Origin: a virus
Virus record (IMG/VR): IMGVR_UViG_3300037842_000443
Span: 1-53,159 of that record
DNA: 53,159 bases
Strand: one strand, 5' to 3'
Shown here: in pieces, positions 31,332-49,817 of the stretch
How the letters are laid out: each line of letters starts with the position of its first letter
Position numbering within the stretch: position 1 is the stretch's first letter
Position numbers and translations under genes: made by a program
The notes under the pieces: model-generated
What the model was told of the DNA's origin: nothing
What the model saw: the letters and a program-made list of their open reading frames with translations, nothing else
The model's database searches: none

Positions 31332-31407
31332 TATGCTTATATTTGTAATAGTTATGTTGATTATCACTTGGGTATTTCTAGGTTCAAATGGAGGAGGTAC
31401 AGTATGA
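31321..31407 (+). CDS. 28-residue membrane peptide
   Basis: RBS GGAG at 31310-31313. One span (MLIFVIVMLIITWVFLG) then SNGGGTV; the glycine codons double as the strong RBS of the ligase gene, whose ATG overlaps this stop (ATGA). Confidence 0.45.
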   Translation: MIFDMLIFVIVMLIITWVFLGSNGGGTV

Positions 31408-32971: not shown

Positions 32972-35860
32972 ATGAAAAAATTTAGAGATTTTAATTCTGC
33001 GGATGAAGTATCAGTAAACGAAGTTGTAGTTAAAGGAATTTTCAAAAGAAAAAATACAGGACTTAATATAAATAGTAAAAATTTAGTTAAATTCTTCCAT
33101 TCTATTGCTGGAAAAGAGTTTAGAAGTTTCAGAGATCCTGAGTTCCATAACGTATTTAATGATTATTTTAAATTAGATCCTAGAATCAAGACATTTTATA
33201 AAGATGAAGTTGCTTACTTCTTTAAGCATTTCGCTACAAAAATTCATAATAAAAAAATCTCTATTAATGTTATTCCCAGTAAAGTGGATGACAATGTCAA
33301 AGTGAAGGTATCACAGTTATCTAAAGGTAAAGTTAAGAAACTAAAGATCCCATCAGCAATCAAAGGAGATAAAATAGAGAAGTTCGCTAAAACAGTCCTT
33401 AAAAATATGATGGGTACCAGCAAAGGTAGATTATTATTAACTGGTGATCCTGGCACAGGTAAAACGAGTTCAGTTCAAACTGTTATGTCGTTGTTGCGTA
33501 TGAATGTGATTACAATTGAAGCTCCTCATGTATCAGAAGAGCACATCATTAACGTTCCTTATCTCGTTAAACGTGGTGTAGCTGATACTAAACATGAATC
33601 ATCATTTGAGGAAATTGGGTCATCATTTGAAGTTGTTAATGCTGATTCAAATCTAATCACAACACTTAGAAAAGCAAAACCAATCAAAGATGTTGAATAT
33701 GAAAAATTCCTTAAAGCTAATAGAGCATTAGCTCCTTTAGCAGCACAGTTAAAAAATGTAATTGCTTCGTTAAATTATACTAATGTATTGTTCATTGATG
33801 AGTTCTTCCGTTCAGGATCCACTAGGATTCAGAATTTATTCAGAACTATATTGAATGGTAAGATTGGTACTACTGCGATCCCAGCTAATACATATATCAT
33901 TTACTCATCTAATATGGATGATTCTGATGGTTCCTTGGACGGTATAGCATTAAACCAGCAATTCCAAGAGGTTGAGTTTGATAAACCTGAAGCTGCTGGT
34001 TTCATGACATATATGGCTGATAAGTTCACTAATATTGATCCAATAACCGGTGAAGAAATAGGTGATAAACAGGATCCCATTACACCTGAAGTGTATAATG
34101 CGTTTATTGATGCACTCAAAGATGAAGAAATGGGTGTTAAAGATAAATCTACAGAAGCTGAAATTAGAGTGTCACCGAGACGTTGGGAAGAAATTATCAA
34201 ATATGTGAATGCTAATATACCAGCATCAAGTAATATAGCAGCTAATAGACTGTTGACGTATATTAGAGATAATATGAAAGATTATGAGACTGGAGAATTA
34301 TCTAGTTTATATCCTAAATATGCTGATCTAGTTAAGAAATTGATTACTGATTCATCTGATATTAATGCTGAAGATATCGTTGTTATAGAAGATGAAGATT
34401 GGAGAGATAATCTTTCTGGTCAGATTGAATCTAAGTTGAAGATGGGTAACGATCGTAAATATGTTCCTATCATATCTGGAAAACCAGGCTTAGGTAAGAC
34501 AACGATTATTGATAATATATGTGAAACATACTCACTCAAGAAGATTGATATTGATTGCTCTGTATTAAATTCAGAAGATGTAATCGGATTAACTACTCCA
34601 TCAACTAATGGGGGTGTAACAACAACAGAGTTTACAACACCTCCTCTACATGCTCAAATCATGGCTGATTATGATGAATCAATAGAGCCTGTAAACGGTT
34701 ATAAGTATACTCATATACTATTCTTAGATGAGATTACTCGTGTTGCTACTCCATCAGTCTTTAATGGTATCAGAGCTTTGATACTAGATAAGAAAGTAGG
34801 TCAAGTTGAAATCCCTAAAGATATTATGATTGTAGGAGCTATGAATCCAGTAGATGTAGGTGCGGAAACCTTAACTGATCATATGAAAGATGTAGTGGAT
34901 ATCGTAACAGCTGAAGCTAATTACATTAAATTATTTCAATATTTCAAAAGTGTAACTGTATACAAGAATAACAAAGATACAATTGGATTTGATATTAGTC
35001 CCGTTGTATCAGAAGTATTCGATGGTATCGTTGATACATTTAAATCAGATGTTGATCCAGATGGAAATACTTTGAATGTTAATGATGGACATTTCTATTG
35101 GACTGATGGTTTCAATGTTGTATATGTATCACCTCGTGAATTTGATGATATGATGATCGGTAGTATTGAGAATGTTGTAAGTGCTTTGATCATTGATGGG
35201 TATGATAGCGATGTTAATTACAGTGACGTTGAATCTGATGAATATATCAATGTTATAATCGATGCTGTTAAAGAAACAATGGTTGGTGCATTTAAGTTTA
35301 TTATCAGCAAACACAATTTAGTGGATACTGAGTTTATGAGTAAATTTGATTTGTATATTCAAACCACTTTATCTAGTCAATATACTGTTATAGAGGAATT
35401 GATGAATAGTATTCAATCTGAAGCTATTGTATCAATGAGAGGTATATTCAATGATTCTGAGTCTATTGAGGAGTTGCTTAATTATGACGGTGTTAAAGAT
35501 ATTTTAGAGACTATAATCGATACTAATGATGTTGATATTATCATCAATGAGATTAGTGATGTTCTCATAGAGAAATCACAAACCAATGATATTGCTGTTA
35601 TATTTGATAATCTACTCGATATTAGAAAGTTGCTGATGAAGGTTGATTGGTCGAAATATAGTGGAGAGATTACAAATGGATTGAGTAATAAATTCATTGA
35701 GATGATCTTAAAACCGTTAATGAATAAGATCCTTAAAAATGATGGTATGTATAATGATATACCGTTCATTGATTATATGACGAATATATACACTCGATAC
35801 GATGAATTGATATCGATGATTGATATGGCAAAAGAAAATAAAAATAATATGTTTATATAA
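32972..35860 (+). CDS. Tandem AAA+ ATPase, MoxR/dynein-related type
   Basis: 962 residues. First AAA module: LLLTGDPGTGKTSS (Walker A, about 155-168), NVLFIDEFFRSG (Walker B, about 270), YIIYSSNMDDSDG (sensor 1). Second: IISGKPGLGKTTII (Walker A, about 499-512), HILFLDEITRVA (Walker B, about 580), MIVGAMNPVDVG (sensor 1). NMxxxDG/NPxDxG sensors and the DEF/DEI forms are those of MoxR-type ATPases, which act with VWA proteins to remodel other proteins. The last 250 residues are helical without a known fold. A VWA protein is encoded next. Confidence 0.82.
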   Translation: MKKFRDFNSADEVSVNEVVVKGIFKRKNTGLNINSKNLVKFFHSIAGKEFRSFRDPEFHNVFNDYFKLDPRIKTFYKDEVAYFFKHFATKIHNKKISINVIPSKVDDNVKVKVSQLSKGKVKKLKIPSAIKGDKIEKFAKTVLKNMMGTSKGRLLLTGDPGTGKTSSVQTVMSLLRMNVITIEAPHVSEEHIINVPYLVKRGVADTKHESSFEEIGSSFEVVNADSNLITTLRKAKPIKDVEYEKFLKANRALAPLAAQLKNVIASLNYTNVLFIDEFFRSGSTRIQNLFRTILNGKIGTTAIPANTYIIYSSNMDDSDGSLDGIALNQQFQEVEFDKPEAAGFMTYMADKFTNIDPITGEEIGDKQDPITPEVYNAFIDALKDEEMGVKDKSTEAEIRVSPRRWEEIIKYVNANIPASSNIAANRLLTYIRDNMKDYETGELSSLYPKYADLVKKLITDSSDINAEDIVVIEDEDWRDNLSGQIESKLKMGNDRKYVPIISGKPGLGKTTIIDNICETYSLKKIDIDCSVLNSEDVIGLTTPSTNGGVTTTEFTTPPLHAQIMADYDESIEPVNGYKYTHILFLDEITRVATPSVFNGIRALILDKKVGQVEIPKDIMIVGAMNPVDVGAETLTDHMKDVVDIVTAEANYIKLFQYFKSVTVYKNNKDTIGFDISPVVSEVFDGIVDTFKSDVDPDGNTLNVNDGHFYWTDGFNVVYVSPREFDDMMIGSIENVVSALIIDGYDSDVNYSDVESDEYINVIIDAVKETMVGAFKFIISKHNLVDTEFMSKFDLYIQTTLSSQYTVIEELMNSIQSEAIVSMRGIFNDSESIEELLNYDGVKDILETIIDTNDVDIIINEISDVLIEKSQTNDIAVIFDNLLDIRKLLMKVDWSKYSGEITNGLSNKFIEMILKPLMNKILKNDGMYNDIPFIDYMTNIYTRYDELISMIDMAKENKNNMFI

Positions 35861-35874
35861 CACACACGATGCGG

Positions 35875-35880
35875 TATAAT
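35875..35880 (+). promoter_or_regulatory. -10-like box before VWA gene
   Basis: TATAAT preceded by GCGG in the 43-base gap between the AAA and VWA genes; no -35 evident. May provide an internal start for the VWA-DUF285 part. Confidence 0.3.
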
Positions 35881-35903
35881 TAAATGATAATTAAAGGTAT
35901 TAT

Positions 35904-37829
35904 ATGAAGAATTTTTTAAGTGAGATTGCTGGAAGTGGTATTAAATCTCAGAAAGGTGTTACATTTTCAACATCAACAATGAGTACACCTTTCGTAGTCA
36001 ATTTGATCAACAAAATATCAGACACGTCTGGTAAATCAGTTGCTACGATTAAAGCAGATGTACAATTTCAAAGTGAAATAGCTTTAGAAAAAATGAAAGA
36101 TGGACCTGATAGATTCTATGCAGATGCTAGAAAGAATGTTATTGAAAGCATATTGTTTAGTATGATTAAAGAGATTGATCATACAGAAAAATTCAATGTC
36201 GAAGAGTTTAAAATACTCTTTAATTATATTCTAGTTAAGAATAAGAATTTCCTCAAAATCAAAGATCCTATGACAGGTAAACGTGTTAAACTTAATATCA
36301 TGTACACTCCTATGCCGTCCTTTGTGAAACAACCTGATTGGGTTAAAAACGTTGATACTGCATCAGCGTCTCCTGAGGGTGATATTGTATTTAATATTAA
36401 CTTTATTAATCAATTAATCACATACGCTTCTTATAAAGAGATAAAACCGAAAGGTAGCATATACAAATCTAATGGTGGTTTAGTATCAGATAATTTAGCG
36501 TACATTGAGTTTCTAATTCTACATGAAATATATCATATCATACACGGAGATCATTTCTTTCAATCAAAGAAAGAAGGTATGACACCAATTGTCCAGAATT
36601 ATTTAGGTGATTTCATCAGCAATGCTAATCTAGTTAAAGCTGGGTATGAGCAATTACCAATTGGATTATATTCATCTAATTATAACTATGATAATTATAC
36701 TACAATGAATGATATGCAGGATGATATTATAGAAGATATAGAATCTATGACTGATGTTCAGAAACAGAATGCTGACGATCAGATGGATCATCATATGGAT
36801 GATAATCATGAGAAGTTAGATTCTACATCTGATGGTCAAGATGGTCAAGATGGTCAAGATGGTCAAGATGGTCAAGATGGAGAATCGCGAGATGATTTGT
36901 TGGATGATGCTATGAAAAAATCATCAGATGATATTGTTGATGCAGCTGATGAAATGACTGCTGATGAAATTGAAAATGCTATTAAGAAAATGAAAGAAGA
37001 ACAGCAAAATGAATCTGCTGCAGATAGACGAAAATCAATTGACTCTCGAACTAAACGCGCTGAAGAGAGAGATAAAAACATCAAAGATCTTAATCAAAAT
37101 TCTGATTTTAAACCTATCAACTGGCTTAAACTGCTACGAATGATGATTCCTAAAAAGAAAGTTAAAGAAGAGGAGTCTATAACTAAGTTGAGTAGACGTA
37201 CTAGAGCGTCTCTAGCAACAGCTAGCACTAACAGCAAGATCAGCATCAAAGCTGGTATAATCAAAGATGAGGAAAATGAACAAAATCTAATGTTTGTACT
37301 TGACTCTTCTGGGAGTATGAGTGGTATAATTGAAGATATTAGCATCGATATATTAAAGTTGATTGATAAGAGTAAATCTACAGGTGTGAAAAATGTGTAT
37401 ATTATCAGGTTTGACTCTGATTATGCTATGTATAAGGTTATTATAGATCCAAGAGGACGGAACCACACGTACATTGAGTTGAAGCGTCCTATGGATATTC
37501 TAACAAAAGATGGAAGTAGACTAGATTTTATCGGAACTACGAAACCCTTGAAAAATCTATTTAAATTATCATGGGGTGGTGGAACAATTTTCCCTAAGGG
37601 AGTAGTTTTAATTATACAGAAACTACTGAAGATGAAATTCAATCAAGTTCTTTTCACTGATTCAGATATATTAACTGAAGAAAATATTAAAATGCTGAAT
37701 ATAGCATCAAGAACTGGAACAAAACGACCATACTCATTTAATGTATTATTAGATAAAAAAGATACGTATGAACAAGTGTCCAAAGCATTAGGTGGACGAT
37801 ATAAGTATATGAGCTACATTAGTGATTAA
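35904..37829 (+). CDS. VWA domain protein with metallopeptidase-like N-terminal region (DUF2201 type)
   Basis: 641 residues. The N-terminal part includes LILHEIYHIIHGDHF (about 202-216), an HExxH motif as in the metallopeptidase-like region of DUF2201 proteins. An acidic linker with six DGQ/DGE repeats (about 311-328) and charged helices leads to a C-terminal VWA domain: FVLDSSGSMSG (about 462-472, MIDAS), then DSDYAMYKVI, SWGGGTIFPKG (third MIDAS element) and VLFTDSDIL. Such proteins pair with MoxR ATPases, as here. Its stop codon overlaps the GTG of the first DUF285 gene. Confidence 0.82.
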   Translation: MKNFLSEIAGSGIKSQKGVTFSTSTMSTPFVVNLINKISDTSGKSVATIKADVQFQSEIALEKMKDGPDRFYADARKNVIESILFSMIKEIDHTEKFNVEEFKILFNYILVKNKNFLKIKDPMTGKRVKLNIMYTPMPSFVKQPDWVKNVDTASASPEGDIVFNINFINQLITYASYKEIKPKGSIYKSNGGLVSDNLAYIEFLILHEIYHIIHGDHFFQSKKEGMTPIVQNYLGDFISNANLVKAGYEQLPIGLYSSNYNYDNYTTMNDMQDDIIEDIESMTDVQKQNADDQMDHHMDDNHEKLDSTSDGQDGQDGQDGQDGQDGESRDDLLDDAMKKSSDDIVDAADEMTADEIENAIKKMKEEQQNESAADRRKSIDSRTKRAEERDKNIKDLNQNSDFKPINWLKLLRMMIPKKKVKEEESITKLSRRTRASLATASTNSKISIKAGIIKDEENEQNLMFVLDSSGSMSGIIEDISIDILKLIDKSKSTGVKNVYIIRFDSDYAMYKVIIDPRGRNHTYIELKRPMDILTKDGSRLDFIGTTKPLKNLFKLSWGGGTIFPKGVVLIIQKLLKMKFNQVLFTDSDILTEENIKMLNIASRTGTKRPYSFNVLLDKKDTYEQVSKALGGRYKYMSYISD

Positions 37830-38613
37830 AATAAATAGTAAAACACATTTACAGAATATTATCAATGAAAGATCTGATGATGCTGATCTTAATGACCTTG
37901 ATGTTTCTAATGTTACTGATATGAGTAATGTGTTCATGCACTCTAAATTTAATGGTGATATAAGTGAGTGGGACATCTCTAATGTTACTGATATGAGTGA
38001 TATGTTCAATCAATCACCATTCAATGGTGATATAAGTGAGTGGAATGTTTCTAATGTTACTGATATGAGTTATATGTTTGGTAGTTCTAAATTCAATGGT
38101 GATATAGGTAAGTGGGATGTTTCTAATGTTACTGATATGAGATTTATGTTTAATAGTTCTAAATTCAATGGTGATATAAGTAAATGGGATGTGTCTAATG
38201 TAACTAATATGAGTTATATGTTTGGTAGTTCTATATTTAATAATGATATAAGTAAATGGGATGTTTCTAATGTTACTGATATGAGTTATATGTTTGGTAG
38301 TTCTATATTTAATAATGATATAAGTAAATGGGATACTTCTAATGTTACTGATATGAGTTATATGTTTAGTAGTTCTAAATTCAATAGTGATATAAGTGAG
38401 TGGAATGTGTCTAATGTTACTGATATGAGTTATATGTTATATAATAATTCACCATTTAATGGTGATATAAGTAAATGGGATACTTCTAATGTTACTGATA
38501 TGAGTTATATGTTCCATAATTCCCCTATAAAAGCAAAATCTTGGGATGAGTATTTAACTTACGCGATTCCTAGAAAACGTTTAGGTCTCTTTATGGAAAT
38601 ATTGGAATTATGA
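37822..38613 (+). CDS. BspA/DUF285 repeat protein 1 of the array
   Basis: 263 residues from a GTG inside the end of the VWA gene. Cap MIKINSKTHLQNIINERSDD, then about nine 25-residue repeats (MSYMFGSSxFNGDISKWDVS and variants) and a C-terminal cap (IKAKSWDEYLTYAIPRKR ... EILEL). No signal peptide. Two successive repeats (38214-38273, 38274-38333) are almost identical in DNA, and the same block recurs in the last gene (40512-40631). Overlap with VWA means it is made with that protein. Confidence 0.85.
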   Translation: MIKINSKTHLQNIINERSDDADLNDLDVSNVTDMSNVFMHSKFNGDISEWDISNVTDMSDMFNQSPFNGDISEWNVSNVTDMSYMFGSSKFNGDIGKWDVSNVTDMRFMFNSSKFNGDISKWDVSNVTNMSYMFGSSIFNNDISKWDVSNVTDMSYMFGSSIFNNDISKWDTSNVTDMSYMFSSSKFNSDISEWNVSNVTDMSYMLYNNSPFNGDISKWDTSNVTDMSYMFHNSPIKAKSWDEYLTYAIPRKRLGLFMEILEL

Positions 38614-39398
38614 TTAAAATAGGTAATAGAACACATTTACAGAATATTATCAATGAAAGATCTGATGATGCTGATCTTAATGACCTTGATGTTTCTAATG
38701 TTACTGATATGAGTTGGGTTTTTAAAGGATCTACTTTCAATGGTGATATAAGTCAATGGGATATGTCTAATGTTACAGATACAGATTATATGTTCAAAGA
38801 CTCTGAGTTCAATGGTGATATAAGTAAATGGGATATTTCTAATGTTACAGATATGGACTTTATGTTCAAAAACTCTAATTTTAATGGTGACATAAGTGAG
38901 TGGGACGTCTCCAACGTAACTACTATACGTAACACGTTCAGTACATCATCATTCAATGGTGATATAAGTAAATGGGATGTGTCTAATGTAACTAATATGA
39001 GATTTATGTTCAATAATTCTAAGTTTAATGGTGATATAAGTGAGTGGGATGTGTCTAATGTTACTGATATGAGTGATATGTTTGGTGACTCTGAATTCAA
39101 TGGTGATATAAGTGGCTGGGATGTATCTAATGTTACCAATATGAGTTTTATGTTCAATGATTCTCGATTTAATGGTGATATAAGTAAATGGGATGTATCT
39201 GAAGTTATTAATATGAGTTTTATGTTCAATAATTCACCATTCAATGGTGACATAAGTAATTGGGATGTATCTAATGTAATTGATGATAATTATATGTTCA
39301 ATCATACCCCTATAAAAGCAAAATCTTGGGATGAGTATTTAACTTACACGATTCCTAGAAAACGTTTAGGTCTCTTTATAGATATATTGGAATTGTGA
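38610..39398 (+). CDS. BspA/DUF285 repeat protein 2
   Basis: 262 residues. ATG overlaps the stop of the previous copy. Same N-cap (MIKIGNRTHLQNIINERSDD) and C-cap (IKAKSWDEYLTYTIPRKR) with about nine repeats that differ at the MFxxSxF position (KGS, KDS, KNS, STSS, NNS, GDS). DNA of both caps is nearly the same as in copy 1, so the copies recombine or duplicated recently. Confidence 0.85.
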   Translation: MIKIGNRTHLQNIINERSDDADLNDLDVSNVTDMSWVFKGSTFNGDISQWDMSNVTDTDYMFKDSEFNGDISKWDISNVTDMDFMFKNSNFNGDISEWDVSNVTTIRNTFSTSSFNGDISKWDVSNVTNMRFMFNNSKFNGDISEWDVSNVTDMSDMFGDSEFNGDISGWDVSNVTNMSFMFNDSRFNGDISKWDVSEVINMSFMFNNSPFNGDISNWDVSNVIDDNYMFNHTPIKAKSWDEYLTYTIPRKRLGLFIDILEL

Positions 39399-39640
39399 TT
39401 AAAATAGGTAATGAAACTCATTTACAGAATATTATCAACGAAAGATCTGATCTTAACGACTTAGATGTATCTGGTATAACTGATATGAAGGATGTGTTCA
39501 AACGTTCAATGGTGATATAAGTAATTAGGATGTAACAAGTGTGATTAATATGTTCAATTATAATAGATGTTAAGGATTATAATAAACAGCAAGAACCTCA
39601 TAGAAATATGGGCATTTTCATAGAAATATTAGAGTTGTGA
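39395..39640 (+). pseudogene. Truncated DUF285 copy
   Basis: GTG 39395 begins a normal cap (MIKIGNETHLQNIINERSD) but the frame stops at 39520 after MKDVFKRSMVI. Repeat and cap sequence continues in other frames (FNGDIS, then YNKQQEPHRNMGIFIEILEL up to 39640). Most repeats are deleted. Its C-cap is of the YNKKQEPYRN type found in the last copy, not the KSWDEYLTY type. Confidence 0.75.
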
Positions 39641-40353
39641 TTAAAGTAAGAGATAAGCATCATTTAAAAGAGATAATTAATATGGGTCCAGATGATGCTG
39701 ATCTTAATGATTTAGATATATCTAATGTTATTGATATGGATTCCATGTTCAAGGATTCTGAATTCAATGGGAATATAAGTGATTGGGATGTATCTAATAT
39801 ATTCAATGCACGGGCGATGTTCAAAAATTCTAAATTTAATGGTGATATAAGTGGATGGAATATATCGAGATTAACTAGTACAAGATCAATGTTTAGTGGT
39901 TCTGAGTTTAACGGTGATATAAGTGGATGGAATGTATCTAAAGTTATTGACATGAGTAGAATGTTTAGGGATTCTGAGTTTAATGGTGATATAAGTGGAT
40001 GGAATGTATCTAAAGTTATTGACATGAGTAGAATGTTTGAAAATTCTAAGTTTAATGGTGATATAAGTAAATGGGACGTGTCTAATGTCATTAGAATGAG
40101 TAGAATGTTTGAAAATTCTAAGTTTAATGGTGATATAAGTAAATGGGTGACCTCTAAATTAATATACACGAATAGCATGTTTTATGGTTCTGAGTTTAAT
40201 AGAGATATTACTGAATGGAATGTGTCTGATATTGCTGATATGAGTGATATGTTTGGCAATTCGCCTATAAAAGCGGATTCATGGGACGAATATTTAACTT
40301 ACATGATACCAATGAAACGCATGGGCATTTTTATGGAGATATTAGAGTTATGA
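39637..40353 (+). CDS. BspA/DUF285 repeat protein 3
   Basis: 238 residues from a GTG overlapping the end of the remnant. Cap MIKVRDKHHLKEIINMGPDD; about eight repeats, more divergent than copies 1-2 (NISDWDVSNIFNARAMFKNS, ISGWNISRLTSTRSMF); two adjacent repeats (IDMSRMFRDS/IDMSRMFENS, 39940-40080) are near identical. C-cap IKADSWDEYLTYMIPMKR. Coupled to the next copy by ATGA. Confidence 0.85.
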   Translation: MIKVRDKHHLKEIINMGPDDADLNDLDISNVIDMDSMFKDSEFNGNISDWDVSNIFNARAMFKNSKFNGDISGWNISRLTSTRSMFSGSEFNGDISGWNVSKVIDMSRMFRDSEFNGDISGWNVSKVIDMSRMFENSKFNGDISKWDVSNVIRMSRMFENSKFNGDISKWVTSKLIYTNSMFYGSEFNRDITEWNVSDIADMSDMFGNSPIKADSWDEYLTYMIPMKRMGIFMEILEL

Positions 40354-40994
40354 TTAAAGTAAGAGATGGTGGACATTTAAGGAAGATCATTTCAGAGAGG
40401 CCTGATGATGCTGATCTTAATGACTTGGATGTATCTAGTGTTGATAATATGAGTTTTATGTTCAGTAATTCTAAATTCAATGGTGATATAAGTAAATGGG
40501 ATGTGTCTAATGTAACTAATATGAGTTATATGTTTGGTAGTTCTATATTTAATAATGATATAAGTAAATGGGATGTTTCTAATGTTACTGATATGAGTTA
40601 TATGTTTGGTAGTTCTATATTTAATAATGATATAAGTAAATGGGATACTTCTAATGTTACTGATATGGACTTTATGTTCAAAAACTCTAATTTTAATGGT
40701 GACATAAGTGAGTGGGATGTATCTAATGTAATTAATATGGATTCAATGTTCGATGGTTCTCGATTTAATGGTGATATAAGTAAGTGGGATGTATCTAATG
40801 TTACTCGTATGAGTTATATGTTCAAAGATTCTCGATTTAATGGTGATATAAGGAATTGGGATGTATCTAATGTCATTAGTATGAATTATACGTTCGAAGG
40901 TAGTGTGATATATGCTAAAGATTTTGACGAATATAATAAAAAACAAGAACCATATAGAAATATAGGTATTTTCATGGATATATTAGAGTTATGA
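40350..40994 (+). CDS. BspA/DUF285 repeat protein 4
   Basis: 214 residues. Cap MIKVRDGGHLRKIISERPDD, about six or seven repeats, some almost identical in DNA to blocks in copies 1 and 2 (40490-40640 and 40660-40710), and the alternative C-cap YAKDFDEYNKKQEPYRNIG. The mosaic of blocks indicates gene conversion between copies. ATG 40350 overlaps the upstream stop; a longer in-frame start at 40281 lies inside copy 3 and is unlikely. Last gene of the operon. Confidence 0.82.
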   Translation: MIKVRDGGHLRKIISERPDDADLNDLDVSSVDNMSFMFSNSKFNGDISKWDVSNVTNMSYMFGSSIFNNDISKWDVSNVTDMSYMFGSSIFNNDISKWDTSNVTDMDFMFKNSNFNGDISEWDVSNVINMDSMFDGSRFNGDISKWDVSNVTRMSYMFKDSRFNGDIRNWDVSNVISMNYTFEGSVIYAKDFDEYNKKQEPYRNIGIFMDILEL

Positions 40995-41011: not shown

Positions 41012-41040
41012 TTGATCTTTATCGTTTTCTATGGTATAAT
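41012..41040 (+). promoter_or_regulatory. Sigma70-type promoter (TTGATC - 17 - TATAAT)
   Basis: -35 41012-41017, -10 41035-41040 with TGG extension, 33 bases before the protease gene, giving that gene its own transcription start. Confidence 0.7.
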
Positions 41041-41072
41041 AGACTCACAAACTATAGAAAAGGAAATATATT

Positions 41073-43766
41073 ATGAATAAGTCAATTTTAGCAGCAGCGA
41101 TTGCATCTTCCATTACTAGTAATGTAATGGCTAATCAATTAGATGAAGTTCAATTCGAAGTATCAGATTTTTACACAGATTATTTTAATGCTTTGGATAT
41201 AAATGGTATAGAAATATCCAAAGAAGATTTGAAAGAAATTGAGAAAGTTGATATGGAGTTGTTTTTATTAGATACAGCTCCGATTGATATTACTCGAATT
41301 AATGTATATAGCAAAGCTATTGATAAGTGGACATTAGTTAGAGGTCATTATAATGGACACGAAGATAATCCAATAATCCAACGGTTAGATGATGAAGCTG
41401 ATAAATTAGCAGTTACTGCTGCTACGATATTAATGACAGAAATTGAGTCTATGTTAGATGATTCATCTCTTCTAACAGCTAGTTTAGCTGATAATCTGAG
41501 AAAAGCTATCCCAATATACAAGAGGATAGCAGATCGATATAAATCACTTGCTGTATCTTGGAGCAAATCTCGTCCAACCCACTTCTTAACTAAAATATTT
41601 GAGAAACGTGCTCAGAAATATGACCGTTTATACAAGAGGTTCCAATCTCAGTTAGATAACATCACTAAGAAAGCTGAACCTATCAAGAAGGTAGTTGAGC
41701 CTGTTAAAGAAGTTAAGAAGGTAGTTGAACCTGTAGCTAACACAAAACGAATCGACAATCTCAAATCAGGTATAGAGAAGTATCAATCAGTATTGAATGG
41801 TAAACAGAAGTTGATTGATAATATGAAGAAAAATAATCCAGACCACTGGTTAATTCCAATTTGGCAGAAAAAAGCTGATAAACTAGCTAAGAGTATAGTA
41901 AATTTCAAGAAGCTTCTTCAGAAAGAATATGATAAACAGACGCTTATCAAGAAGGTAGTTGAACCTGTTAAAGAAGTTAAGAAGGTAGTTGAACCTGTTA
42001 AAGAAGTTAAGAAGGTAGTTGAGCCTATCAAGAAAAATATTGACTTTAACACAGTTGAATATAGAGCAAATGGTCTTCAATATATTAAAGCAGACTCCGC
42101 TTACAAGCAGGGATGGACTGGAAAAGGGGTAACTGTTGCAGTGATTGATTCAGGTGTTGATCCAGATGCACCGATCAATATGGCTAAAGGATATGATGCT
42201 TGGTATAAAGTGGAAGGGCAGTCAAATGATACCAACTCGAAAGGGCATGGAACTCACGTCGCAGGAATCATTGCCGCTAAACGAGATGGCAGCGGAACAC
42301 ATGGTGTCGCTTTTGATGCAACTATTTTACCTGTGAAGATATCTAATAGTACTGGAACTGTGAGTTATGAGACGTTGAGAGATGGGGTAAAGTGGGCAAC
42401 AGGAAAAGCCAAGATTGCTAATTTATCTGTTGGAGGTAAAATCAGCACTAAACGTGGATCAGCTTATATCAAAAGGTTGTTCCGAGATGAGCTACTTAAT
42501 GCTATTAACAACGATCTTACATTGGTTGTCGCAGCCGGTAATTCAGGATTAGATTGTTTAGGTGATGAGTGTACTTATCCTGCAGCATTACCTAGTGTTG
42601 AGGGGTATACTGGTTTAACTAAAGGTGTTGGAGGATATATTACAGTTGGATCTGTTCAAACATCATTAGAGGAAAATAAGATGTCAGTATTCTCCAATAA
42701 AGCTGGAATTATGAAGGATTGGTATATGGTAGCTCATGGTCATTGGATTCTATCAACTGCTAAAGGAGGAGGAACTATTAGAAAATCAGGAACTAGTATG
42801 GCCGCTCCTCAGGTTGCTGGAGCAGCTGCTCTATTAGCTCAAAAATATCCACATTTAAAAGGATCAGAGATCGCTTCTATTTTATTTCAAACAGCAACAG
42901 ATTTAGGTGTTAAAGGAGTTGATGAAGTATATGGTCACGGATTACTGAATATCGAAAATGCTATGGCTCCAATTGGTGATCTAACCTTACCAACAGCTAA
43001 CACAGTTCAAGGAGCTTCTTCGACTCTTCAACCTATAACAATATCACCTGCTCTCACGAGTTTAATGAGTGCTAATATTCTTTCTGAAGCTATTGCCTTT
43101 GATGATTATGGTAGAGGATTTGAAGTTGATATGACTCAAACAGTTAGCATTAATTCAGAGACTATGTCATTTAATGACTTTACTTATGGAAGTGCTGGTA
43201 ATCTTATTATGGGATTCAATGAGTTAACCAATCAATTTTCAATAGGATATGATTATGGATTGATAGATATATCACTAGCACAAACTAATGATATGTTTGG
43301 CATGGATGATGATACATTATCATTTGGTGATGCTTCTACTCAATATTTAAGAGTTGGTGCTAATCATGATGGATGGGTTGCTAATTTAGATATTGGCTAT
43401 GCAGGCGGTAACACTGTTAATGATAGCTTAATAAGCTCTTATACTGACACCATTGGTATTGGTATGGATATCGGATGGTCTGATGATAATTGGACATTAG
43501 GACTATCAAGTCCAATATCTATCGTTTCTGGGTCTGCTGATATAACTGTTGCTACTAATCGAGATAATATAGGAAATATTATTAAAAAGACGGGCACTGT
43601 TGATCTTGATACTCAATACAGAGAATGGAACACAGAAGTGTCTTATATGATTCATCCTAATAAAGTTGATGATCTTAAATTCAGCTTAAACGGCACTATC
43701 AATTCAGGAAACATAGATAGTGATTATGAGAATGGATTTAATGTTACCTATACTTACAATTTTTAA
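41073..43766 (+). CDS. Secreted subtilisin-like protease with C-terminal outer-membrane barrel-like domain
   Basis: 897 residues. Signal peptide (ILAAAIASSITSNVMA, cleavage after about 20). Residues 20-325: helical prodomain-like region with repeats of KKVVEPVKEV. Residues about 345-630: S8 protease with VAVIDSGVD (Asp, about 359), KGHGTHVAGIIAA (His, about 392), VVAAGNSG (oxyanion Asn, about 489) and SGTSMAAPQVAGAAALL (Ser, about 575). Residues 690-897: alternating amphipathic strands ending NVTYTYNF, a BAM-type C-terminal Phe signature as in autotransporters. RBS AAGGAAA. Highly unusual for a phage; catalytic residues are all present. Confidence 0.82.
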   Translation: MNKSILAAAIASSITSNVMANQLDEVQFEVSDFYTDYFNALDINGIEISKEDLKEIEKVDMELFLLDTAPIDITRINVYSKAIDKWTLVRGHYNGHEDNPIIQRLDDEADKLAVTAATILMTEIESMLDDSSLLTASLADNLRKAIPIYKRIADRYKSLAVSWSKSRPTHFLTKIFEKRAQKYDRLYKRFQSQLDNITKKAEPIKKVVEPVKEVKKVVEPVANTKRIDNLKSGIEKYQSVLNGKQKLIDNMKKNNPDHWLIPIWQKKADKLAKSIVNFKKLLQKEYDKQTLIKKVVEPVKEVKKVVEPVKEVKKVVEPIKKNIDFNTVEYRANGLQYIKADSAYKQGWTGKGVTVAVIDSGVDPDAPINMAKGYDAWYKVEGQSNDTNSKGHGTHVAGIIAAKRDGSGTHGVAFDATILPVKISNSTGTVSYETLRDGVKWATGKAKIANLSVGGKISTKRGSAYIKRLFRDELLNAINNDLTLVVAAGNSGLDCLGDECTYPAALPSVEGYTGLTKGVGGYITVGSVQTSLEENKMSVFSNKAGIMKDWYMVAHGHWILSTAKGGGTIRKSGTSMAAPQVAGAAALLAQKYPHLKGSEIASILFQTATDLGVKGVDEVYGHGLLNIENAMAPIGDLTLPTANTVQGASSTLQPITISPALTSLMSANILSEAIAFDDYGRGFEVDMTQTVSINSETMSFNDFTYGSAGNLIMGFNELTNQFSIGYDYGLIDISLAQTNDMFGMDDDTLSFGDASTQYLRVGANHDGWVANLDIGYAGGNTVNDSLISSYTDTIGIGMDIGWSDDNWTLGLSSPISIVSGSADITVATNRDNIGNIIKKTGTVDLDTQYREWNTEVSYMIHPNKVDDLKFSLNGTINSGNIDSDYENGFNVTYTYNF

Positions 43767-43772
43767 ATCATG

Positions 43773-43806
43773 AATAGTATCATCAATTATTTTTGATGAT
43801 ACTATT
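43773..43806 (+). terminator. Perfect 14-bp hairpin after the protease gene
   Basis: AATAGTATCATCAA (43773-43786) pairs fully with TTGATGATACTATT (43793-43806) around a six-base loop of mostly T. No long T run follows, so it is a possible terminator or mRNA-stabilising stem. It is palindromic and could work on both strands. Confidence 0.6.
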
Positions 43807-43839
43807 TACATATCAACAAAAATGAGGTATTATTGCATT

Positions 43840-44136
43840 ATGAAGTTAATAAGAGATGGATATAATGAAGTTATTACGAGTAGAAGATTAACTAAGGCAC
43901 TACCGGAGGATCATAGTGATTGGGCAATAACAAAACTCCATGAAGAACTTCAAGAACTTGCTGTTACAGATTGGAGTGATCCAGAAGAGTATGCAGATGT
44001 TATTGAGGTTTTATACAAATTGATGTCTCTTCGTGGTACTACCCCAGAAGAAGTGGAACAAATACGATTAAAGAAACTCAAAGAATTTGGTGCCTTTAAT
44101 GATGGATTATTATTGATATATAAGGATGAAACGTGA
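43840..44136 (+). CDS. MazG-like / PRA-PH-like nucleotide pyrophosphohydrolase
   Basis: 98 residues. KLIRDGYNEV at the start, then ITKLHEELQELAVTDWSDPEEYADVIEVLYKLM: the ExxE...ExxD arrangement (EELQEL, EEYADVIE) of the all-alpha MazG/HisE NTP pyrophosphohydrolase fold. Phage members degrade nucleoside triphosphates or alarmone-related substrates; substrate here unknown. ATG 43840 gives the family start MKLIRDG; ATG 43822 would add six residues. Overlaps the RNA ligase gene. Confidence 0.65.
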   Translation: MKLIRDGYNEVITSRRLTKALPEDHSDWAITKLHEELQELAVTDWSDPEEYADVIEVLYKLMSLRGTTPEEVEQIRLKKLKEFGAFNDGLLLIYKDET

Positions 44137-45251
44137 TGTTGTTTAATGATTTAATGGTTTTGTGTGATAATAATGATGCATTTGCTTATACAGATATTAA
44201 TCATACTGATGGAGCTGTGTATCGGTTATTCAATTACCGTTTAGCGTCGTGGTCTGATTTCCATGATAATCTTAACGCGCTAGAGTGTAGAGGTTCATTA
44301 TTCCGTGAAGATGATTCAGAATGGAAGTGTGTATCAAGACCTCCTGAGAAGTTTTTTAATTTACATGAGGGTGATGTAGATCATAACTTCTTAAACCCTA
44401 TGCAAATTATGGTGAAAGAGGATGGATCTCTTATAAGCACTTTCATCGATGTTAATAAAAATCTTGCTGTTAAAAGCAAAGGATCGTTATACAGTGAACA
44501 CGCTCAAGCAGCGATGAATATCATTAAAAACTCTAAAGAATTAGAAGATGATTTAATAGTTTTAGGATATATGGGATATACAGTGAATATGGAATATTGT
44601 TCAGTTAATCCTTTACATCGCATTGTTATATCACATGAAACTAATCATTTAGTGGTTCTTAATGTTAGACACAACGAAACTGGTCGATATTTAACTCAGC
44701 TAGAGATTAAATATATTAAATCTATTTCTAGTTTATTGAATTACTGGGTTGATGTTAAAGTTATAGAAGATGTAAATTTGTTTATTGAATCTGTACCTAA
44801 TATGATTGATATTGAAGGGTATGTGATACAGAAAGTTACAGGAGAGCACGTTAAACTCAAAACATTATGGTATCTTGAGCGTCATCGAGCTAAAGATACT
44901 ATTACTAATCCAAAAGCATTATTCAATGCTGTATTAGATGAGATACTTGATGATGTGCGAGAATTATTCATTGATGATAATCATGCATTAGAGCTTATCA
45001 ACAAAGGAGAGTTGTATGTTAATAACATACACAACACTCTTGTTCAGGAGGTTGAGAGTTATCATAAAGCTCATATAGAAATGGATCGAAAAGGATATGC
45101 TATTAACGGACGAGATGTTTTAAGCTCAGGAGCATTTGGATTAGCTATGATGTTGTATACTGATAAAATACCTGATTATAAGAAGTCCTTGAGAAAACTG
45201 TATAAAGATGAAATATTTAGAACTAAATTTATAGATGAGGTATACTTATGA
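44136..45251 (+). CDS. rnlA: RNA ligase 1, T4 RnlA-like
   Basis: 371 residues, T4 RnlA has 374. Start MLFNDLMVLC, ALECRGSLF, SRPPEKFFNLHE and the nucleotidyl Lys motif KEDGSLIST (about 94) follow T4 RnlA step by step; motif IV is IDIEGYVIQ and motif V VKLKTLWYL. It reseals tRNA cut by host anticodon nucleases, together with PseT. The stop of the MazG-like gene overlaps its start (TGATG); GTG 44133 is an alternative start. Confidence 0.92.
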   Translation: MLFNDLMVLCDNNDAFAYTDINHTDGAVYRLFNYRLASWSDFHDNLNALECRGSLFREDDSEWKCVSRPPEKFFNLHEGDVDHNFLNPMQIMVKEDGSLISTFIDVNKNLAVKSKGSLYSEHAQAAMNIIKNSKELEDDLIVLGYMGYTVNMEYCSVNPLHRIVISHETNHLVVLNVRHNETGRYLTQLEIKYIKSISSLLNYWVDVKVIEDVNLFIESVPNMIDIEGYVIQKVTGEHVKLKTLWYLERHRAKDTITNPKALFNAVLDEILDDVRELFIDDNHALELINKGELYVNNIHNTLVQEVESYHKAHIEMDRKGYAINGRDVLSSGAFGLAMMLYTDKIPDYKKSLRKLYKDEIFRTKFIDEVYL

Positions 45252-45367
45252 AAATTATGATGGTTATAATAATGACGCTAACTCTATCAGGTTGTTTTAT
45301 AGGAGGAACGATTAACACTACTCTTGATATAGCAGGAGATGTAATTGATGTAGTGGTACCGTTTTGA
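45248..45367 (+). CDS. 39-residue lipoprotein
   Basis: Signal peptide with lipobox LTLSGC (Cys 16), mature part of 24 residues. ATG overlaps the ligase stop (ATGA) and its own stop overlaps the TTG of the AAA gene (TTGA). Small phage lipoproteins often serve in superinfection exclusion or lysis; not recognised. Confidence 0.5.
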   Translation: MKIMMVIIMTLTLSGCFIGGTINTTLDIAGDVIDVVVPF

Positions 45368-46641
45368 TTGATTTAAATTTCATCACTCAGGGTATCACTA
45401 ATGGTAATATATATCTAGAGCAAGTATTTAATGGGAATGAATTTGCTATAGGAGCTGTGATTGCTGGGGTGGCTGGATTCAGTGCTTATATGATCCGAGA
45501 ATTACCTGTGATGGTTTGGTTCATTATTAAGAAACATTTAACCACTACATTATCTGTGAATAACACTCAAGCATCATATCATCTTATTATGAGATATTTA
45601 TTACATCAAGGATTATCTAATGAATCTAGAGCGATTAAGTTAGGGAATGGATTGGATGGGTATAACGATAATACTATAAAAGAGGTAGGTTATGGGTCAC
45701 AATTTTTCTGGTTTAAAAATCAACCAATTATAGTTAATATTAGATCAGAAGAACTAGGATCAGCAGCATCTATAGTAAAAGAATTCGTCACTATACGAAA
45801 GTTAGGACGATCACATAAATTATTTGATGATCTTATGAAAGATATGTATAATAGTAAAGATCAAGATAAGACTAGATATTATAAATGGGAGTATTATGAT
45901 CAGACTTTAATATCAGAGCAACCTAAACATGATCTAAATAAAGTTATTTTATCAAATATCAATAGAATTAATCTGATGAATGTTATCAACACATTCATCA
46001 CTAAAGAGGATTGGTATCTAAAACATAATATACCATATCAATTAGGTATACTGTTATATGGTCCAAGTGGTACAGGTAAGAATAGAACAATTCAAGGACT
46101 TGCAGCTTACTTAAATAAGGATATTATTTTTGTTGAAGATGTGAGTAATCTAATATCAGCATCTCAATCTGTAAAGAATGGTATCATTGTTGTGGATGAG
46201 GTAGATACATTAGATCTTAGAAAAAGTGATTATATAAAAGATAATAATTCATCAAGTAAATCTTCTCTAGGAAAGATTTTAAGTGCATTGGATGGAGGAG
46301 TGGTTAATCATGGACGAATCATAATATTAACTACTAATCACAGAGATGTGTTAGATTCTGCGATGTTAAGACCAGGACGAATCGATCTTCAATTGGAATT
46401 AGGGTATCTGGATGTTGATATGTTTAAAGAAATGCTTCGGAATTTCTTCACAGAAATTCCAGATTTTACATCTATTATTGATAAGTTATCCCCTGCTCAA
46501 CTTCAGAATGATATTATGATGGGAAAGTCTCTTGATAGTATATTAAAACTGTATATAAACGATTCTAAGCGTGTTTCAGATGGAATTGATGCTAAGACTC
46601 GGGATGTGAATAATAAAGCGTATAGACGTAATTTTAACTGA
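45364..46641 (+). CDS. BCS1-like AAA ATPase
   Basis: 425 residues. N-terminal hydrophobic segment (about 28-45, AIGAVIAGVAGFSAYMI), a BCS1_N-like beta domain, then AAA: YQLGILLYGPSGTGKNRTIQ (Walker A, about 229), IIVVDEVDTLDL (Walker B), LSALDGGVVNHGRIIILTTNH (sensor 1) and LRPGRIDLQLEL (Arg finger). BCS1 moves folded proteins across membranes in mitochondria; bacterial and phage relatives exist with unknown roles. Walker A ends in GKN rather than GKT/S. TTG start overlaps the lipoprotein stop. Confidence 0.8.
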   Translation: MIDLNFITQGITNGNIYLEQVFNGNEFAIGAVIAGVAGFSAYMIRELPVMVWFIIKKHLTTTLSVNNTQASYHLIMRYLLHQGLSNESRAIKLGNGLDGYNDNTIKEVGYGSQFFWFKNQPIIVNIRSEELGSAASIVKEFVTIRKLGRSHKLFDDLMKDMYNSKDQDKTRYYKWEYYDQTLISEQPKHDLNKVILSNINRINLMNVINTFITKEDWYLKHNIPYQLGILLYGPSGTGKNRTIQGLAAYLNKDIIFVEDVSNLISASQSVKNGIIVVDEVDTLDLRKSDYIKDNNSSSKSSLGKILSALDGGVVNHGRIIILTTNHRDVLDSAMLRPGRIDLQLELGYLDVDMFKEMLRNFFTEIPDFTSIIDKLSPAQLQNDIMMGKSLDSILKLYINDSKRVSDGIDAKTRDVNNKAYRRNFN

Positions 46642-46706: not shown

Positions 46707-47051
46707 ATGATTAAAAAAGAGATATTCATTAATTGGATTAATGCAACACAAACACAAATGAAACACAATCTAGCCATCAATGAAGCATTTCGTAATGCTG
46801 GAACTGATACATATTGGATGGGAACAACTAGTAACGAACTTACAGTAGCGTTGAATGATATTATAGAAGATGTTATAGGAGTAGAGGGTATTGATATCGT
46901 TAATTGGTGGTTATATGAATGTGGAGAGGATAACTCATTCGGAGATAATGTAACCGAACCATTAATATATGATAAAGATGAAAATATAATTGCAGATCTA
47001 ACAAAAGTAGAAGATTTATATGACTGGATTACTAAAGAGGAGTATTCATGA
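46707..47051 (+). CDS. Hypothetical phage protein
   Basis: 114 residues, soluble, acidic. Reads like a common phage protein with AFRNAGTDTYWMGTTSNELT and DWITKEE at the end; function unknown. RBS AGAGAG. Overlaps RnlB gene by four bases (ATGA). Confidence 0.55.
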   Translation: MIKKEIFINWINATQTQMKHNLAINEAFRNAGTDTYWMGTTSNELTVALNDIIEDVIGVEGIDIVNWWLYECGEDNSFGDNVTEPLIYDKDENIIADLTKVEDLYDWITKEEYS

Positions 47052-48022
47052 AATTTATTAAATACTCTAGCATTGAAAATGGATATCGTAAACTATTCAT
47101 TGATTATATAAAGGAACACCTCGATTTCAATGATGTAACTTGGCAAGTAACTGAGAAAATCGACGGATCACATTTAAGTATCATTGTTGATTGTGATACT
47201 ATGGAAACTCGATATGCTAAAAGATCTTGTATAACAGATGATACATTCATGAGTTGTGGAGTAGTAGCTGATAAGTATCTTGATAGTGCCAAAATGATTA
47301 GCGAAGAAATTACAATGTTAAATTCTGAAATATGTATTGATACTATTCAGATTGAATTAGAGATTTTCGGCCAAGGTATCCAAAATCGAGTTGTTTATGG
47401 TGCTAAAGATGTTGTGGCATATGATATAAGAATAACTGGTGTTCGTGATGATAAACTATTCACCGCATTTCTTGATCCATTGGAAGTAGTTGAGTTATGT
47501 GATAGATTTGGTATGCCTCATGCTCCTATATTAGCTGATGGATTATCATTCGATGATGCAATGGCATTTAATATACACTTCAACTCAGCTATTAAAGATG
47601 GTGTTGAGAATAACTATGCTGAAGGTGTTGTTCTGAAACCATCTAAAGTGATGTATCTAGGCAATGGTAATCGAGTTGTCATCAAGAATAAATCTGATAA
47701 ATTTAAAGAAAGGATGAAGTCTAAGCGAGTTAAACGAGAAGAAATATGGACTGATCGAATGAATGATGTGTATGAGACTATAAATCAATATATCAATCAT
47801 AATAGACTTAGATCAGCTATCAGTAAAATAGGCACAATAACAAACAAAGATTTTGGTAAATTGATGAAAATAGTTAGCTTAGATGTATTAGATGACTGGG
47901 CTAAAGATTATGAATGGGATGTTGATAAAAAAGAACAGAAATCGATTACAAAGAAAATGAATCGAGAAATAAGCAATCTCATAAGAGAAAATTTCCTCAA
48001 TATAATAGATGGAGTATATTAA
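47048..48022 (+). CDS. rnlB: RNA ligase 2, T4 RnlB-like
   Basis: 324 residues (T4 Rnl2 has 334). KYSSIENGYRKLFI at the start, motif I TEKIDGSHLSI (Lys about 37), AKRSCI, motif III QIELEIFGQGIQ, motif IV AEGVVLKP and motif V VVIKNKSDKFKE. It seals nicks in double-stranded RNA. Presence of both ligase types plus PseT gives a full RNA repair set. Stop overlaps the next ATG (TAATG). Confidence 0.92.
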   Translation: MKFIKYSSIENGYRKLFIDYIKEHLDFNDVTWQVTEKIDGSHLSIIVDCDTMETRYAKRSCITDDTFMSCGVVADKYLDSAKMISEEITMLNSEICIDTIQIELEIFGQGIQNRVVYGAKDVVAYDIRITGVRDDKLFTAFLDPLEVVELCDRFGMPHAPILADGLSFDDAMAFNIHFNSAIKDGVENNYAEGVVLKPSKVMYLGNGNRVVIKNKSDKFKERMKSKRVKREEIWTDRMNDVYETINQYINHNRLRSAISKIGTITNKDFGKLMKIVSLDVLDDWAKDYEWDVDKKEQKSITKKMNREISNLIRENFLNIIDGVY

Positions 48023-48758: not shown

Positions 48759-48948
48759 ACACAAATGGCATAATGAGATTAGAGCATATGCAGATGGATG
48801 GACTATTCTACGAAAAGGCGGACAAAGTTGGTATCCTGATATAGATCCACGTTGGGCTAGTGATCAAATCTTTAAAGTCCAATTGATTGATGGTAATGGT
48901 CCAGTGTATGATGACTCTCAACACGAAGCTGTATGTGATACAGTGTAA
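48745..48948 (+). CDS. Small protein, HxEMRAxADGW-type family
   Basis: 67 residues. The opening HKWHNEIRAYADGWTILRK resembles the gene at 52934 (HKHYQEMRAMADGWEVEV), so the window holds two members of one family. Trp-rich, soluble. Function unknown. Overlaps neighbours on both sides. Confidence 0.55.
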   Translation: MKLVKHKWHNEIRAYADGWTILRKGGQSWYPDIDPRWASDQIFKVQLIDGNGPVYDDSQHEAVCDTV

Positions 48949-49817
48949 TGAAGACTAGAAAATTTTATGTTACTCTCGGATTGCCTGCTAGTGGTAAAAG
49001 TAGCTGGGCTAATCAATTTCTAAAAGATGATAAAAATAAGAATATTATTAATATCAATAGAGATGATCTCAGAAATATGTTATTCGGAAACCATTATAAA
49101 CATTCCAGACATAGGGAGAAAATGGTAACTCTCATGCAAATGGCTATTGCAAATGAAGGATTTGATAATAAAAAAGACATCATTATATCAGACACTAATC
49201 TTAATCCGACTACATACAATAGATTATGTGATTGGGCATTAGAGCATAAATATGAAGTTATTAAAAAAGACTTCACTGACATATCAAGAGAAGAATGTAT
49301 TAAACGTGATCTTGTACGAGTTAATAGTGTTGGTTCCAAAGTAATCAATCGCATGTATGATAAGTACATTAAAGAAGCTCCTAAAAAGTATAAAGGGAAT
49401 GATAAACAAGATACTGTTATTGTTGATATTGATGGGACTATTGCTAAAATGGTTAATCGTTCACCTTACGACTGGGCGTTAGTAGGACAAGATACAGTTC
49501 ATGAAGATGTTAAGTTATTGGTGGATGGGTTGTATGATAGTGGCAAGAAAATCATATACTTATCAGGACGTGATGGTGTCTGTTATGATGATACATTAAA
49601 TTGGTTAAGAGTTAATGAGTTTCCTGATCATGATAACCTTTTTATGAGAGCAGCTGGTAATTGTGAAAAGGATTCAATCATCAAAGAAGATATTTTCTGG
49701 GAGCATATCGCGTCCCAGAATAATGTGATAATGTGTATTGATGATAGAGATTCTGTAGTGTCTTTATGGCGGTCTTTAGGTATTCGTTGTGTGCAAGTAG
49801 CACCAGGAGATTTTTAA
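48948..49817 (+). CDS. pseT: Polynucleotide kinase / 3'-phosphatase, T4 PseT-like
   Basis: 289 residues (T4 has 301). N-terminal kinase: TLGLPASGKSSWA (P-loop, about 9-21), NRDDLRNMLFG, ISDTNLNP and lid residues. C-terminal HAD phosphatase: VIVDIDGTIAKM (about 158), IYLSGRDGV and CIDDRDSVV. It removes 3' phosphates and phosphorylates 5' OH ends so that RnlA can reseal cut tRNAs. Stop overlaps the next ATG. Confidence 0.93.
   Translation: MKTRKFYVTLGLPASGKSSWANQFLKDDKNKNIININRDDLRNMLFGNHYKHSRHREKMVTLMQMAIANEGFDNKKDIIISDTNLNPTTYNRLCDWALEHKYEVIKKDFTDISREECIKRDLVRVNSVGSKVINRMYDKYIKEAPKKYKGNDKQDTVIVDIDGTIAKMVNRSPYDWALVGQDTVHEDVKLLVDGLYDSGKKIIYLSGRDGVCYDDTLNWLRVNEFPDHDNLFMRAAGNCEKDSIIKEDIFWEHIASQNNVIMCIDDRDSVVSLWRSLGIRCVQVAPGDF

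Follow-up and report, generated by a model that had tools for sequence, protein, structure and literature searches.

An S8 protease gene with an outer membrane barrel-like C terminus in a T4-like phage fragment and its relatives in environmental phages

Phages alter the host surface through small lipoproteins and LPS-modifying enzymes. The window analyzed here, the whole of the 53,159-b IMG/VR virus fragment IMGVR_UViG_3300037842_000443, carries a gene for an 897-aa subtilase that a sequence-only reading had taken for a type V secreted protease, and it raises the question of whether a phage might place a protease in the outer membrane of its host and what it would gain by doing so. The window has the genes of a T4-like phage genome (gp39/gp52 topoisomerase, RnlA, Rnl2, PNKP, and ligase), and the nearest matches of its topoisomerase are from Vibrio phages (~40%). 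The features of the protease locus are as follows.

41012..41040, + strand: sigma-70-type promoter TTGATC-N17-TATAAT with TG ahead of the -10 box (extended -10), by sequence match
41060..41064, + strand: Shine-Dalgarno-like AAGGA, read from the sequence
41073..43766, + strand: S8 protease gene with outer membrane barrel-like C terminus, 897 aa, ATG start (ORF, Pfam, AlphaFold2)
41073..41132, + strand: predicted Sec signal peptide, residues 1 to 20, MNKSILAAAIASSITSNVMA/NQ (VMA/NQ), by eye; the next segment begins at 41133
41133..41666, + strand: N-terminal charged region, probably helical, residues 21 to 198 (from sequence, which varies across the family)
41667..41738, + strand: linker 1, (K)KVVEPVKEVKKVVEPV, residues 199 to 222 (from sequence)
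41739..41948, + strand: charged helical segment 2, residues 223 to 292 (from sequence; weakly similar to the N-terminal charged region)
41949..42038, + strand: linker 2, KKVVEPVKEV repeats, residues 293 to 322 (from sequence)
42120..42941, + strand: peptidase S8 catalytic domain, residues 350 to 623 (Pfam PF00082, E 2.3e-49; Foldseek to subtilisins, E 5e-23)
42147..42149, + strand: catalytic Asp359, invariant in 73/73
42246..42248, + strand: catalytic His392, invariant in 73/73
42540..42542, + strand: oxyanion-hole Asn490, invariant in 73/73
42795..42797, + strand: catalytic Ser575 (GTSMAAP), invariant in 73/73
43035..43763, + strand: outer membrane β-barrel-like domain, residues ~655 to 897, with a helix at ~659 to 672 and 10 to 11 long strands plus weak first strands (AlphaFold2, Foldseek)
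43737..43763, + strand: outer membrane protein β-signal FNVTYTYNF (F-1, Y-3, Y-5, V-7, F-9)
43771..43808, + strand: A+T-rich 16-bp hairpin 3′ of the gene, weak terminator candidate (-19.2 kcal/mol, z -5.1)

Read by eye, residues 1 to 20 make a plausible Sec signal cut after VMA, as had been claimed, and the VEPVKEV repeat region resolves into two extended KKVVEPVKEV linkers (residues ~199 to 222 and ~293 to 322) that alternate with two charged, probably helical segments. Peptidase_S8 is the sole significant Pfam domain in the 897-aa protein. The complete triad is there, with D359, H392, and S575 joined by the oxyanion N490 and a subtilisin fold match, as in peptidase family S8, and a PDB sequence search returned the subtilase autotransporter passenger 8e7f (Ssp) as its top match, followed by subtilisins. 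All four residues are intact in every one of 73 family members, a set that comprises the nonredundant full-length proteins (90% identity, query included) from the loci kept in the scans described below. In most close pairs of the family dN/dS is low, about 0.05 to 0.3, a mark of purifying selection; given this and the invariance of the catalytic residues, proteolysis appears to be selected for.

The C-terminal region, previously described as strand rich and ending in Phe, was modeled with AlphaFold2. For residues 320 to 897 (43 sequences) the model shows a strand meander after a subtilisin fold (pLDDT 73), and for residues 632 to 897 (63 homologue sequences, alignment A6) it has a β-meander after a helix (pLDDT 82.8, pTM 0.77). 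The helix (model residues 28 to 41) is predicted directly ahead of the first strand, which begins at 42, and this is a type Va feature. A 12-strand barrel had been proposed as a check; the models bear out a barrel-like meander of 10 to 11 long strands plus weak ones, but neither closure nor 12 strands, and a closed barrel is not seen. In a Foldseek search of the barrel model against the PDB, almost all matches were outer membrane barrels (porins, AlgE, OmpT, and OMPLA), at weak scores (E of at least 0.016, TMq of at most 0.38), and no autotransporter barrel was among the best 50. PF03797 matched neither the query nor any of the 63 domain sequences, the domain has no Pfam or PHROG model, and profile comparison with the EprS barrel (hhalign) gave a probability of only 2.5%.

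The last strand bears on the nature of this domain separately. FNVTYTYNF is a C-terminal β-signal of the kind found in BAM substrates, and its terminal aromatic residue is a known mark for barrel assembly (PMC3419190). The full signature occurs in 58 of 73 relatives versus 21 of 860 neighboring ORFs; across the 73, residues at positions -1/-3/-5/-7 are hydrophobic in 84/78/90/84% and those at -2/-4/-6/-8 in 8/5/23/4%. This pattern provides independent support for the barrel nature of the C-terminal domain. Of the type V assignment, then, an exported subtilase with an outer membrane barrel-like C terminus stands, while the lack of PF03797 and of a β-helical stalk, the EprS comparison, and the weakness of the porin-class Foldseek matches leave type V membership unproven. 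We would call the protein autotransporter-like, with type Va membership not established by its sequence and models.

Single-sequence searches with the protein found no close relative, and tblastn against 50,697 phage records matched the S8 domain only, at up to 32%. Two alignment-based scans of IMG/VR returned 319 and 324 relatives; 80 loci were kept from each, in overlapping sets that include barrel-less S8 proteins. Alignment A3 was set aside as a collection-scan query because it was too variable. Among the 149 ORFs read, 112 reach the end of the S8-plus-C-terminus profile, and 86 of these 112 end in Phe. The homologues that the sequence-only reading had proposed to look for are thus found, both as the 73 nonredundant full-length IMG/VR proteins and as bacterial S8-plus-barrel proteins, and its statement that phages rarely encode such proteins needs qualifying, since dozens of distinct contigs from environmental phages have a gene of this architecture. 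By simple rules, 70 of the 73 have an export signal (a lipobox in 36, LTAC-GGGGG being a frequent form, and a type I signal in 34), and the region ahead of S8 varies from 20 to 900 aa.

Seven family contigs (87, 134, 164, 213, 302, 307, and 353 kb) carry T4-type gp23, and host contamination therefore does not explain the family. The gp39 topoisomerase and Terminase_6N turned up on only a small number of the relatives' contigs, many of which are fragments. Within a few genes of the protease, the 73 loci recurrently have a queE-like radical-SAM gene (45 loci), a phosphoribosyltransferase gene (40), folE (32), and queD (24). None of these neighbors is present at the window locus, which therefore belongs to a different phage lineage.

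Several observations were made alongside. About six ORFs 5′ of the protease at locus L009 lies a gene for a 358-aa protein with no Pfam match, seen at 16 loci near folE/queD/queE-like genes, that is a possible DpdA-like transglycosylase of deazaguanine DNA modification. Loci L225 and L226, on contig IMGVR_UViG_3300037807_000296 (27 kb upstream of the window), have T4 replication-like ORFs (gp47/gp46-like, clamp loader-like, and gp41-like), and the region holds several MYTSIYSGPNFYVYLITDLNPIG ORFs that resemble one another and are possibly homing endonucleases in repeated copies. A match in Pseudomonas phage Y5 (OQ572407.1, locus L002) was rejected as phage evidence, since the record is UNVERIFIED and host-like genes surround the match; its bacterial-type genes (EprS-like autotransporter, argF-like, and molybdopterin oxidoreductase-like) suggest that it is host contaminated.

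The gene was said to have its own promoter, and the extended -10 sequence at 41012 to 41040 is matched by a family-wide enrichment just 5′ of the gene. Of 69 family genes, 40 (58%) have a sigma-70 match scoring 10/12 or better in the 120 bp upstream, versus 96 of 811 neighboring genes (12%), the 69 genes being kin to one another, so that the Fisher p value is not literal. Sigma-70-like sites are not in excess over the region as a whole; the strong enrichment is at the position just 5′ of family genes. The T4-type late promoter TATAAATA was found upstream of no family member, and a late promoter for the family was rejected. The enrichment and this absence argue for early expression by host RNA polymerase, and from the promoter consensus we infer that the family is expressed early. 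The hairpin after the gene, described as strong, is real (16 bp, z -5.1), but it is A+T rich, has no good T tract, and is not kept in the family; a conserved terminator was therefore rejected.

Elsewhere in the window, positions 32972 to 37829 encode a 962-aa double-AAA+ ATPase and, after it, a protein of 641 aa that has DUF2201_N metallopeptidase-like and VWA-like matches, a pair resembling MoxR/VWA. Genes for T4 RnlA-like and T4 Rnl2-like RNA ligases and PNKP (44133 to 45251, 47048 to 48022, and 48948 to 49817), together with an ATP-dependent DNA ligase (31368 to 32699) and seven tRNA genes, look like a full tRNA/RNA repair set. A BCS1-like AAA protein (45364 to 46641; PF08740, E 2e-11; phrog_7485) with a possible N-terminal membrane segment is unusual in a phage.

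We consider it reasonably probable that the gene encodes an early-expressed, self-anchoring surface protease that trims proteins of the host surface, most likely as a guard against superinfection. Transcription by host RNA polymerase would start at the gene's own sigma-70 promoter, the signal peptide would direct the protein through Sec, and BAM would insert the C-terminal domain in the host outer membrane by way of the β-signal ending in Phe. The subtilase domain, ahead of the barrel, would then be displayed on the cell surface rather than in the periplasm and held there by the barrel, with a lipid anchor adding to the hold in about half of the relatives. Cleavage of host surface proteins could change or remove receptors, and the most likely benefit would be less superinfection or less loss of progeny to debris.

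A periplasm-facing protease with an outer membrane anchor would leave identical sequence marks. In that case the barrel would be an anchor only and the S8 domain would degrade, for example, exported host defense or stress proteins, which would suit a barrel fold that is as porin-like as it is autotransporter-like and comes with neither PF03797 nor a β-helix stalk. An S8 domain N-terminal to a C-terminal barrel, a helix before the first strand, and a lipobox in half of the members are, however, the pattern of a surface-displayed autotransporter, and the bacterial relatives have the same domain order; we regard the periplasmic alternative as unlikely. Slightly less unlikely, though still doubtful, is a nutritional role, in which the protease, at the surface or shed from it, would break down protein outside the cell and supply the infected cell with amino acids as the product of an auxiliary metabolic gene. 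Such a role fits the early-type promoter and the aquatic-type phages that carry the gene, with their many metabolic genes (folE, queD, queE-like, and PRTase), but it is doubtful that one infected cell would benefit from a protease that stays attached, no genes for uptake were seen adjoining the protease, and anchoring by lipid plus barrel points to local substrates. The protease might instead weaken the envelope or free virions from surface receptors late in infection. A surface protease could, by reasoning alone, cut receptors on debris, but the strong sigma-70 promoters, the lack of T4-type late promoters ahead of the family genes, and the failure to recognize a recurrent lysis gene in the neighborhoods examined make a lysis or release factor improbable.

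Least probable of all is that the window's gene is a host gene fragment or an assembly artifact. The surface protease reading itself is tempered by the distance of the window copy from the other phage proteins of the family (~30% identity), since not every trend seen across the family may hold for this copy. Tree building groups the phage proteins into large clades in which a few bacterial rows are nested; the query stands alone on a long branch that falls, with weak support (63 and 69%), between the bacterial groups and the phage groups. A tree test rejected, in the form in which it was put, one clade holding every phage row together with the query (p 1e-72); the nested bacterial rows drive this rejection, and the query's own place therefore stays unsure. 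The nearest S8 found is a lipoprotein protease from a 1.5-Mb gammaproteobacterial genome (42% over residues 325 to 717). That genome has two lipobox S8-barrel gene copies of the same length and the same match scores, 47 kb apart (L208 and L209; G790 C1 15143 to 16351 and 62346 to 63554), which are the closest S8 proteins to the query. With the lone branch and the near bacterial S8, separate acquisition of the window copy from bacteria is possible. Four paralogous DUF285 repeat proteins (237 to 263 aa, no evident signal peptides, 80 to 88% identical in parts) occupy window positions 37822 to 40994, an array in which other assemblies of the same phage break: two other contigs with a 100% match to the window end inside it, at 38,283 and 40,804, just 5′ of the protease. 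The protease-gene DNA was found in no other viral contig, and its linkage to the left half comes from one assembly. Against a host fragment, phage genes (T4 RnlA-like, AAA, T4 Rnl2-like, and PNKP) adjoin directly 3′, local G+C is close to the contig value, if somewhat higher over the S8 domain, the frame is intact, and homologues are fixed in many phage contigs. The possibility of a recent host fragment, raised earlier as a refutation, is countered for the family by its many phages and purifying selection, though not for the window copy with its deep lone branch and a bacterial S8 at 42% identity.

If the surface protease reading is true, anchoring a protease through a barrel would give phages a different, broad means of changing the host surface, and it would tie a widespread unannotated gene family of T4-like environmental phages to superinfection control. 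The family also defines a barrel domain new to Pfam and PHROG. Its dozens of distinct relatives in environmental phages suggest that phages commonly remodel the surface of infected cells. That many T4-like aquatic phages, jumbo phages included, share a class of self-secreted surface proteases with their own, hitherto undescribed translocator-barrel family, an early weapon that remodels the host surface and is functionally a phage NalP/SphB1, is a more tentative proposal, to which we give somewhat less than an even chance.

Subtilase autotransporters combine an S8 passenger with a signal peptide, either lipidated or ordinary, a β-helical stalk, and a PF03797 barrel (PMC9977779, PMC9289746), and NalP and SphB1 are lipidated, surface anchored, and cleave surface proteins (PMC9977779). 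The phage protein shares with subtilisin-like type Va autotransporters (NalP, SphB1, EprS, and Ssp) a predicted signal peptide, the S8 passenger, and a C-terminal β-domain with an aromatic end, and about half of the phage relatives share the lipidated signal of NalP and SphB1. Unlike them, it is phage encoded, neither query nor homologues match PF03797, and a variable 20 to 900 aa precede S8. Group 15 subtilase autotransporters are defined with a ~200-aa β-helical stalk after the protease (PMC9289746), whereas only ~35 residues separate the end of S8 (623) from the helix at ~659. The domain order is also shared by uncharacterized S8-plus-barrel proteins of Alpha- and Gammaproteobacteria (such as L150, L149, L208, and L215). 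Their barrel is homologous (E as low as 7e-79 with the A6 profile), some of them have a lipobox and poly-Gly as in the phage relatives, and they likewise lack a Pfam barrel model. They differ in being chromosomal and are uncommon: of 398 genomes drawn from the phylum to which one bacterial relative belongs, 26 have a match to the barrel, and in nearly all cases the match is part of an S8-plus-barrel protein.

In the openly licensed literature, no account of autotransporter-like proteases in phages was found. S8 proteases of Bacillus, Staphylococcus, and other phages share the catalytic domain (27 to 32% identity), but those read are short (about 300 to 390 aa), end at or soon after S8, and have no barrel. 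Judged by its model, the same architecture is already present in databases as A0A6J5TBB6 of an uncultured Caudovirales phage (BFVD), a whole-length structural match (E 5e-36, TMq 0.69) at only 20% identity that is annotated for the peptidase domain alone ("Peptidase S8/S53 domain containing protein"). T4-like pelagimyophages encode a CsgGF curli pore in the outer membrane (PMC7029224, PMC9004378); these proteins are unrelated and form a pore rather than a protease, but they offer a precedent for T4-like aquatic phages that encode outer membrane export parts.
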